From Pelodictyon luteolum (GTDB lineage: Bacteria; Bacteroidota; Chlorobiia; Chlorobiales; Chlorobiaceae): DNA of 42,471 nucleotides. Position numbers and translations under genes: made by a program. The notes under the pieces are model-generated. The model was not told the DNA's origin. It searched no databases and saw nothing but the letters and a program-made list of their open reading frames with translations. The stretch is from contig DYNE01000019.1 in assembly GCA_020721225.1 (NCBI GenBank), positions 1 through 42,471 on the forward strand. The letters are read 5' to 3'. Below, one piece after another: positions 11,242 through 14,495 of the stretch (position 1 is the stretch's first letter; each line of letters begins with the position of its first letter).

Positions 11242-12447
11242 ATGAAGAAAGATTATTATGAGGTGCTTGGCGTAAGTCGTTCTGCCTCGAAGGATGAAAT
11301 AAAAAAAGCGTATCGCCAACTGGCACTGCAGTACCATCCCGATAAAAACCCCGACAACAAGGATGCAGAGGAGCATTTCAAGGAGGTGAACGAGGCGTAC
11401 GAGGTGCTCAGCAACGATGATAAGCGTCGTCGATATGATCAGTTCGGACATGCCGGCGTAGGCTCATCAGCCGCTTCAGGAGCGGGAGGGGCATACGGTG
11501 GAGGCGCAACTGATTTCAATGATATTTTCAGCGCTTTCAACGATATGTTCGGTGGCGGACGTACGCGTGGCGGAGGAGCTCCGTTCGGTTTCGAGGAAGT
11601 GTTCGGTGGTGGCGGAGGAGCAGGACGGCGCGGGAGGACTTCTGTGGGGATTCCCGGTACGGATCTTAAGATCAGGTTGAAGCTTACTCTTGAGGAGATC
11701 GCCAAAGGAGTTGAGAAGACGCTTAAGATCAAGAAACAGATTGTCTGCAAGGAGTGTAACGGGAGCGGCTCAAAAACCGGTGCTACCGAACCATGCCAGA
11801 CCTGTCACGGTTCCGGAGAGGTTCGTCAGGCCTCTAAAACCATGTTTGGACAGTTTGTCAATATTACCGCCTGTCCGACATGCGGCGGTGAGGGGCGCGT
11901 TGTAAAGGACCGTTGCACGGCATGTTATGGTGAAGGGATAAAGCAGGGAGAGGTGACCGTCAAGGTGGCGGTGCCGGCAGGTGTTCAGGATGGTAATTAT
12001 CTGACTCTCAGAGGTCAGGGGAATGCCGGGCCAAGAGGTGGTGCACCGGGAGATCTTATAGTGGTTATCGAAGAGAAGCCTCATGAGCTGTTCCGAAGAG
12101 AGGGCAACGATGTGATCTATGAACTTGCTCTAAGTTATCCCGATCTCGTACTTGGGACGAAGATAGATGTTCCTACCCTGGATGGAGCCGTGAAGCTCAC
12201 GATTCCTCCGGCAACGCAGCCGGAAACAATGCTGCGAATTCCCGGACAGGGTATAGGTCATCTGCGAGGATCGGGAAAAGGTGATCAGCTGGTAAGGGTT
12301 AATGTATATGTACCGAAAGATCTTGCCCATCACGAGAAGGAGTTGCTGAAAGAGTTAAAAAAAACCTCCGTATTTTCACCTTCAGGCAGCAACAACGATA
12401 AGGAGGAAAAGAGTTTTTTTGAGAAAGCCCGTGACATTTTCAGTTAA
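11242..12447 (+). CDS. dnaJ: Chaperone protein DnaJ
   Basis: Hsp40 co-chaperone that delivers unfolded clients to DnaK and stimulates its ATPase. The 401-residue protein shows all class A parts in order: J domain with HPD at 32-34, Gly/Phe-rich linker (about 73-130), four zinc-finger CxxCxGxG-type repeats at about 169-176, 185-192, 211-218 and 225-232, then the C-terminal client-binding domains. The fourth repeat is CTACYGEG, a mild variant. It is the last gene of hrcA-grpE-dnaJ and is closed by a strong hairpin 20 bp later. Confidence 0.97.
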
Positions 12448-12466
12448 CGGGCGAATAAAAGGGGAT

Positions 12467-12498
12467 AAAAAAAGCCGGCAGATCGCTGGCTTTTTTTT
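12467..12498. terminator. Bidirectional terminator after dnaJ
   Basis: The arms 12467-12479 and 12485-12497 pair over 13 bp (one G-T) around the loop AGATC. Eight T follow on the plus strand and seven A precede, so it can end dnaJ transcripts and those of the convergent flavodoxin-like gene. Confidence 0.85.
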
Positions 12499-12514
12499 GT
12501 GTTCCTGAACGTTT

Positions 12515-13171
12515 TCAGAGTCCTCCGGTTTCAGATTTCGCCTCTTCGACAACTGCAAGGGTGATCTCACGGTATCCCATCTCTTCGGCATACTCCTCTG
12601 TTGCAATTTTGATCCTGTTTCTGAAAAAAGAGGGGATGGTATCGAGCAGTTCGATTGCCTCGTCAGTCCATGCAAGTGAAGCATTGCGTCTGCGGGTATC
12701 TTTTTTATAGGCATTGCAGAGTTCCTCGACAAATGATTCTATTATTTCAGGATCGGAAAGTTGCTGGGGCGAAAAAATTCGCTCGGCAAGAATTTTGTTC
12801 CGGACGAGGTGCATTTTCAACTGAGGAAGGTAGAGCAGGGTTGCCATCGGTTCCGGACTGCCGCAGGTGAGGAAAAGCGCTATTTTCTTGCGTTTGAGAT
12901 ATTTTTTCAGGTTGCTCTGAATAAGCGCACCGAGAAGCTGTGACGATACGAGCAGATAGTAGATCGGAGCTCCCATGATCACGACATCAAAATCCTGTAT
13001 GAAGCTGTAATCTCCGGTTGCCTTGCATTTCGCTTTTTCAACATAGGCTCCGTTATTGGCCAGTTCCAGGCCTATCGCATCGATAAGTCGGTCGGTAGAA
13101 CCTCCGGAACTCCTGCTGTCATAAAGAATAACCGCTCTCATTTGCTGCTGTTGCTGCGCTGAATGTGTCAT
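12515..13171 (-). CDS. Flavodoxin-like protein fused to a PCP_red (protochlorophyllide reductase C-terminal) domain
   Basis: From the ATG at 13171 the protein is 218 residues. Residues 11-145 form a flavodoxin-like fold: strand 1 and phosphate loop RAVILYDSRSSGGSTDRL, then DVVIMGAPIYYLLVSSQLL, then KIALFLTCGS, where FMN would bind. Residues about 168-212 (WTDEAIELLDTIPSFFRNRI and on through YREITLAVVEEAK) match the small helical PCP_red domain found at the C-terminus of ChlB/BchB, the 57-kDa subunit of dark-operative protochlorophyllide reductase. The pairing suggests an electron-transfer or redox protein linked to bacteriochlorophyll metabolism; this is inference. Starts further upstream (TTG at 13261) or downstream (ATG at 13141) are possible, and no ribosome-binding site decides between them. 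It is a single gene between two terminators. Confidence 0.75.
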   Translation of the reverse strand: MTHSAQQQQQMRAVILYDSRSSGGSTDRLIDAIGLELANNGAYVEKAKCKATGDYSFIQDFDVVIMGAPIYYLLVSSQLLGALIQSNLKKYLKRKKIALFLTCGSPEPMATLLYLPQLKMHLVRNKILAERIFSPQQLSDPEIIESFVEELCNAYKKDTRRRNASLAWTDEAIELLDTIPSFFRNRIKIATEEYAEEMGYREITLAVVEEAKSETGGL

Positions 13172-13361
13172 GAAAGGTATTTTGGTTACGGTACTGTTGT
13201 GCTTTAGGGCAATTCTTTTTCTATTGTTGCGATATTTTCTGACGTCGTCTGGATAGATCAAGCAGAAAAATAGAGCTGCCCGTGAATATATTTGTTTTTA
13301 ATTATAACACATTCAGCGAAAAAACTCTAATCGTGTGTTGGTTGAAAAAGGGGATGGTAGC

Positions 13362-13388
13362 AAAAAAAAGGGCGGATAAACCGCCCTT
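13362..13388 (-). terminator. Rho-independent terminator of gap
   Basis: Read on the minus strand, AAGGGCGG (13388-13381) and CCGCCCTT (13375-13368) form an 8-bp stem with a five-base loop, followed by a T-run complementary to the A-run at 13362-13369. It lies 33 bp after the gap stop codon. Confidence 0.9.
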
Positions 13389-13421
13389 CTGAATTCTTTA
13401 CCTGTATACCTACACTTGTTT

Positions 13422-14495
<1,074 letters not shown>

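Follow-up and report, generated by a model that had tools for sequence, protein, structure and literature searches.

The locus studied here raises the question of what a flavodoxin-like protein might do with the tail of the chlorophyll reductases. The gene lies in the window, by which we mean the whole stretch of 42,471 nucleotides of Pelodictyon luteolum DNA that was analysed, and it joins a flavodoxin-like half to PCP_red, a domain best known from BchB and ChlB. Both domains are familiar, and their pairing appears to be undescribed in the literature searched, mostly papers open without subscription, in which no account of such an architecture was found.

The gene and its surroundings

The interval given for the gene in the first-pass annotation, 12515-13171, is correct, with the gene read on the minus strand from 13171 to 12515. 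The locus comprises the following features.

12515..13171, minus strand: whole gene of the flavodoxin-PCP_red fusion, 218 aa, ATG at 13171, stop at 12517-12515, with full-length relatives
13422..14426, minus strand: gapA-like gene (glyceraldehyde-3-phosphate dehydrogenase), upstream and a recurrent neighbour, named from a reading of its sequence
11242..12447, plus strand: dnaJ-like gene, convergent and a recurrent neighbour, likewise named from its sequence
13366..13390, minus strand: terminator-like hairpin after gapA and upstream of the fusion gene, from the hairpin scan
12465..12500, no strand assigned: inverted repeat flanked by runs of A and T in the gap between the fusion gene and dnaJ, read by eye

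An in-frame TTG lies upstream of the ATG, at 13261, so that the start codon is a matter of choice; the alignment of relatives (26 rows) begins around the ATG region. To describe the gene as standing alone, as was done at first, is fair, given that gapA precedes it on the same strand and dnaJ converges on it. As to the terminators said to flank it, the hairpin scan found one hairpin where 1.4 were expected in shuffles, so that the one on the gapA side is weak evidence, and it did not call the inverted repeat on the dnaJ side, a possible two-way terminator.

Two domains in one chain

The first-pass annotation had proposed an N-terminal flavodoxin-like fold and a C-terminal PCP_red domain, and both were borne out.

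12707..13141, minus strand: flavodoxin-fold domain, approximately residues 11-155, from the Flavodoxin_5 match, the VIA structure comparison and invariant columns
Within this domain: SRSSGGST (residues 19-26), phosphate-loop-like; GAPIYY loop (67-72); TCGSPE loop with Cys103
12536..12670, minus strand: PCP_red domain, residues 168-212 (PF08369, E 3.2e-15; best match of the tail model 2kru)

In Pfam the PCP_red match reaches 56.3 bits (cut-off 32.5) and covers 45 of 45 positions. Flavodoxin_5 matches residues 15-105 with 28.1 bits, narrowly above the cut-off of 27, and as this sequence match is marginal, it is the structure model that settles the predicted fold. The full-length model, derived from 26 rows, has a mean pLDDT of 83.4. 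Its residues 11-155 are predicted to adopt the same five-stranded fold as the short-chain flavodoxins from Desulfovibrio vulgaris and D. gigas (VIA Z 16.7, rmsd 2.4, 138-140 residues), to which they are 17-18% identical over the aligned part and from which the fusion differs by its additional C-terminal domain. Note that two receptor crystal structures ranked above these flavodoxins, with Z values of 17.1 and 16.8.

The tail modelled alone (pLDDT 81.9) was matched best by 2kru, the solved PCP_red domain of Chlorobium BchB (Z 9.9, rmsd 1.2, 55 residues), which is also the closest solved sequence to the fusion protein. The unrelated RuvB chains gave Z 7.9, Asr4154 of Nostoc (2l09) gave Z 7.2 at 35% identity, and ChlB (2ynm chain D) gave Z 6.9 with an rmsd of 1.0 over 50 residues. 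Such values are modest for a small helical domain, and with RuvB at 7.9 the assignment as PCP_red rests on the sequence match. Asr4154 shares the tail fold, but its solved chain of 62 residues has no flavodoxin domain.

The window genome contains PCP_red three times, in BchB, in the fusion gene and in BchZ. Its BchB scores 971.9 and 743.7 bits with the two BchB/ChlB family models (cut-offs 509 and 490.35), whereas the fusion protein is matched by the same NCBIfam models over residues 133-217 only, with 49.5 and 44.6 bits, respectively. It thus carries the domain of BchB/ChlB joined to a flavodoxin, without the nitrogenase-like part. The single BchZ of chlorophyllide a reductase (locus L003; TIGR02014, 676.3 bits) has a nitrogenase-like body and a PCP_red tail as well, the latter with a weaker match of 39.5 bits.

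Across the 26 rows, Ser19 and Gly24 of the phosphate loop are invariant, as are Cys49 and Cys103, and Thr26 is nearly so. In a comparison of tailed with tail-less copies, Cys103 was found in 39 of 39 and 33 of 35 rows, and Cys49 in 39 of 39 and 25 of 35, so that the Cys49 of the Chlorobiaceae is absent from 10 of the 35 tail-less rows. With the phosphate-loop residues and the cysteines conserved, the fusion protein is likely to bind FMN.

A flavodoxin core with an added helical part recalls, in its layout, HmuF/FldH of Fusobacterium. HmuF and FldH are reported to share a flavodoxin fold, to possess a helical cap and to bind both FMN and heme (PMC10404700). By analogy, the fusion protein could be a tetrapyrrole carrier or reductase whose helical tail caps the flavin and holds chlorophyllide for handover or hydride reduction, and the radical SAM genes that neighbour some of its relatives would suit such a role. 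In the same report, however, the FldH cap is inserted between strands and contains a heme-ligand histidine (PMC10404700), while the additional helices of the fusion protein, residues 170-214 in the model, are predicted to follow the core, and they belong to another domain family. We therefore consider an HmuF-like function quite unlikely.

Distribution among the Chlorobiales

A full-length tailed copy was found in 78 of 86 Chlorobiaceae genomes. One further genome of the family (G051) has tandem copies, the tailed one of which is split by a contig end, and seven (G014, G019, G022, G062, G066, G083 and G094) are without an intact tailed copy. All seven are drafts, four of them (G022, G062, G066, G094) 96-100% and three 81-88% complete, so that the tailed copy could sit in a gap; G019 and G083 (81-82% complete) yielded a weak match alone. 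The 12 other Chlorobiales genomes gave tail-less matches only; PCP_red turned up there at the size of BchB or BchZ or as fragments on other contigs. A stop codon falls within the full-length matches of G008, G009, G068 and G073; in G008 and G009 the frame is intact, with 210 aa. The flavodoxin half itself was found in all but two (81-82% complete) of the 98 Chlorobiales genomes.

A scan of contigs with the single protein, the reach of which is close relatives, returned 25 loci, all from Chlorobium, Chlorobaculum, Chlorobiaceae, Chlorobiales or Chlorobiota, and among phages and plasmids the fusion protein had no match at E 0.01. The pairing of flavodoxin and PCP_red is real and is conserved across the Chlorobiaceae.

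In six genomes of families f2 and f4 (G025, G027, G030, G031, G034 and G035) a single PCP_red match each was obtained, 147-159 bases long and BchZ-like, and no match of BchB size was found. This hints at phototrophs that would possess chlorophyllide reductase but no dark-operative protochlorophyllide reductase.

The wide occurrence of the flavodoxin half would also be in line with a protoporphyrinogen dehydrogenase of the HemG type (PgdH1), an enzyme of the flavodoxin family; the tail would then direct protoporphyrin IX into the branch that leads to chlorophyll. No other protein of the window genome matches Flavodoxin_5 above cut-off, the control genomes with such a match include that of E. 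coli, and HemJ was not found in the window genome. Residues 11-100 also match the HemG model, but with 18.5 bits against a cut-off of 142, and the fusion differs from HemG in bearing the PCP_red tail. Moreover, contig C74 of the window genome encodes a HemY-like protein of 397 aa (L108:172-1365), with 76.4 bits to TIGR00562 and below its cut-off of 97.85. A HemY-like protein is present in 27 of 27 searched genomes of families f1 and f3, so that the protoporphyrinogen step probably has an enzyme, but at E 1e-20 it is absent from 10 of 10 genomes of f2 and f4, which leaves some room for the HemG-type assignment. We regard this assignment as very unlikely. The related idea that a protoporphyrinogen oxidase is missing, suggested by the absence of HemJ, is made less likely by the HemY-like gene, itself below the HemY cut-off. 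Neither HemG nor HmuF structures were among the VIA rows, which is no evidence either way.

PCP_red outside the Chlorobiales

PCP_red was detected at E 0.001 in 14 of 296 genomes of the phylum outside the Chlorobiales, and one locus from each of seven of these (L123-L129) was inspected; the observations apply to this phylum. In 7 of 7 loci the domain occurs on a universal-stress-type protein and on a small cysteine-rich protein, zinc-ribbon-like by eye, and in 6 of 7 it forms the C-terminus of a radical SAM protein resembling NirJ2/AhbD, which in L125 is matched best by the NirJ2 model (340.6 bits, cut-off 500). Each of the seven genomes has five PCP_red matches, and Pfam places five (1 + 3 + 1) in the L125 operon. 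As all five thus lie inside one operon, BchB and BchZ are probably absent there. The universal-stress-type protein of L125 contains three PCP_red copies along with a weak rubredoxin-like stretch, and the locus further encodes an Mrp-type ATPase and a protein similar to cytochrome c or the gamma subunit of DMSO reductase.

The domain is therefore a mobile module and is not specific to phototrophs. Its description as mainly the tail of ChlB/BchB is too narrow in the light of these other fusions. No flavodoxin domain was matched in the seven loci, taken from 7 of the 14 PCP_red genomes, and frequent occurrence of the same fusion in non-phototrophs, which had been named beforehand as an argument against a function in pigment synthesis, was not seen in these candidates (0 of 7). 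The other argument named beforehand, a C-terminus without a significant PCP_red match, is likewise contradicted by the strong match of the tail.

Genomic arrangements and neighbouring genes

In the window the tailed gene stands between gapA and dnaJ, an arrangement that recurs in L036, L037, L039, L079, L080, L117 and L118. Chlorobaculum and its kin carry a tail-less and a tailed copy in tandem (L040-L042, L044 and L055, and L119 between gapA and dnaJ). In genus g1, gapA adjoins the tail-less gene at 20 of 20 tail-less loci (L059-L078), and 18 of these 20 genomes have the tailed copy at another place. Among the matches listed, none of the ten genomes that carry a window-type copy has a tail-less one, so that in its clade the window gene occupies the place of the tail-less gene. 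Two window-type genomes, G065 and G080, have a second tailed copy, located elsewhere in G065.

Downstream of the relocated tailed copies a DUF1997-like gene was found in 18 of 19 loci, although its domain is matched weakly (23.4 bits against a cut-off of 27), with a B12-radical-SAM gene nearby in 12 of 19 and bchU in 5 of 19. Two of the B12-radical-SAM neighbours scored far below the BchE cut-off and received no name as BchE, BchQ, BchR or BciD. The identity of BchU is secure at the scanned loci (478.5 bits), and in 10 genomes bchU shares a contig with the tailed gene at a distance of 654-5229 bases, a count that contig breaks make a lower bound. In most genomes the two genes are on different contigs, among them the window genome (fusion gene on C52, bchU on C57). 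The linkage of relocated copies to bchU is suggestive and not general.

Some further observations concern the same regions. Several relocated loci among L043-L058 and L093-L098 have small neighbours in common that match neither Pfam nor NCBIfam (clusters 10 and 18), and an ArsA/GET3-type ATPase beside a radical SAM gene. In G094 (L113) and G018 (L114) a broken PCP_red tail fragment adjoins bchU; G018 also has an intact copy, and in L113 the frame upstream of the fragment resembles, by eye, the end of a transposase.

Selection and history of the tail

The PCP_red tail is under purifying selection. Pairwise dN/dS of the tail, a rough figure because many dS values exceed 1, is 0.02-0.11 for the window type (12 of 15 pairs, three saturated ones being left out) and 0.04-0.15 for the relocated type (12 of 15 pairs, leaving out two saturated ones and one without replacement changes in the tail). 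Faster evolution is seen in Chlorobaculum and its kin, with 0.14-0.33 in 6 of 6 pairs.

These data bear on the view that the protein is a general flavodoxin with a tail that is unconnected with pigments and either neutral or an interaction module related to stress. The universal-stress and zinc-ribbon-like carriers of PCP_red in all seven non-Chlorobiales loci, confirmed by Pfam in one of them, are in keeping with such a view, as is the seeming dispensability of the tailed form in some lineages. A neutral tail, however, fits poorly with the selection observed, and a function apart from pigments with the confinement of the fusion to the Chlorobiaceae in the genomes searched and with the presence of bchU and radical SAM genes beside some of the relocated copies. 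We judge this view to be highly improbable.

Tailed copies further share a signature in a loop of the flavodoxin half.

12782..12811, minus strand: loop signature of tailed copies, H-L-x-R-N-[KR]-I-L-A-E, residues 121-130, from the row counts of N125 and K/R126

Asn125 is found in 39 of 39 tailed against 2 of 35 tail-less rows, Lys or Arg126 in 39 of 39 against 1 of 35 (an Arg), His121 in 38 of 39 against 5 of 35, and Arg124 in 34 of 39 against 4 of 35; as the rows are related by descent, these counts are not independent. The loop may contact the tail or have a partner in common with it.

The signature also bears on the origin of the fusion. A tree of the flavodoxin half, calculated with the signature columns included, places the tailed copies in more than one group with three changes, but in the AU test a single clade of tailed copies was not rejected (p 0.22), and the shared signature favours one origin. 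Two or more origins of the fusion, as read from the tree, thus seem the less likely course. Recent decay of the tail in tail-less copies was discarded, since no PCP_red remnant was seen downstream of the stop in 35 tail-less genes, with translations judged by eye. Homology matches that extend beyond such a stop are consequently no evidence of a lost tail.

The basic residues of the loop would suit an electrostatic partner and in this respect speak for a dedicated electron donor to the nitrogenase-like reductases, in which the tail mimics that of BchB/BchZ and docks BchL/BchX, so that the flavin feeds the iron-sulfur cluster. BchB/ChlB chains are indeed among the best solved relatives of the tail. 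Against such a donor, ferredoxin is described as the source of electrons for DPOR (PMC7948495), and no tailed copy was seen in several genomes that have a BchB-size protein. A tailed copy is present in 22 of 25 genus-g1 genomes, and in none of these 22 does a BchB- or BchZ-size match, the matches covered by this count, lie within 20 kb of it on the same contig. The first-pass annotation had stated that the tail of ChlB docks the electron donor; in the literature searched, as far as its text was accessible, no statement of this kind was found. We consider the dedicated donor unlikely.

A possible role in bacteriochlorophyll synthesis

The initially proposed link to bacteriochlorophyll synthesis, be it as electron donor, assembly factor or regulator, is partly supported. 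What speaks for it is circumstantial, namely the presence of the tailed form in most Chlorobiaceae genomes and the position of some relocated copies near bchU and B12-radical-SAM genes. On the other side stand the PCP_red fusions to other proteins outside the Chlorobiales and four genomes (G022, G062, G066 and G094) that are without an intact tailed copy and yet possess a BchB-size PCP_red protein and bchU. The first three also have a BchZ-size match, which in G066 falls short of the cut-off. The tail-less genes that G022 and G062 carry in the interval from gapA to dnaJ are alike, so that the four genomes are not all independent of one another. G026 and G029 are examples of other Chlorobiales that encode proteins of both BchB and BchZ size and show the tail-less form only. 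As the untailed genomes retain the BchB-size protein and bchU, the tailed protein is apparently not strictly required for the pathway; apparently it is accessory, or replaceable.

Our preferred reading, held tentatively, is that of an accessory FMN redox protein directed by its tail to bacteriochlorophyll-modifying enzymes. Such a redox partner is favoured by the loop signature, by the purifying selection seen in the tail and, in some relatives, by the neighbourhood of bchU and radical SAM genes. The flavodoxin half is conserved in the Chlorobiales and occurs elsewhere in tail-less form, and in the Chlorobiaceae one copy would have acquired PCP_red, the C-terminal module of the nitrogenase-like BchB and BchZ. 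Through this tail the flavin would reach (bacterio)chlorophyllide intermediates, or the enzymes acting on them, where it could supply reducing equivalents, for example to B12-dependent radical SAM enzymes of the pathway. In this scheme the binding of FMN, the identity of the partner, the direction in which electrons flow and contact with any tetrapyrrole are inferred. A precedent for a redox partner of this type comes from another anaerobe, Fusobacterium, where HmuF partners a radical SAM enzyme (PMC10404700). The protein might instead be a chlorophyllide-handling flavoprotein, in which the tail would recognise either (bacterio)chlorophyllide or the enzymes acting on it, and the next step would be reduced or activated by the flavin; this we find improbable.

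Implications

The accessory redox protein that we favour would touch on a more general problem. To our knowledge, the source of electrons for several steps of bacteriochlorophyll synthesis in strict anaerobes, especially the B12-radical SAM steps, is poorly defined, and a nearly family-wide flavodoxin with the tail of the chlorophyll reductases is a concrete candidate. The fusion also offers a way into the function of PCP_red: the domain is attached here to no catalytic nitrogenase-like core that its deletion might disturb, and sister proteins with and without the tail occur naturally, which allows the effect of the domain to be compared. If the less probable, chlorophyllide-handling reading is true, green sulfur bacteria would possess a dedicated redox shuttle for the tailoring of bacteriochlorophyll, and PCP_red would be a general adaptor of tetrapyrrole pathways, a notion at which the NirJ2/AhbD-like radical SAM protein with PCP_red also hints.
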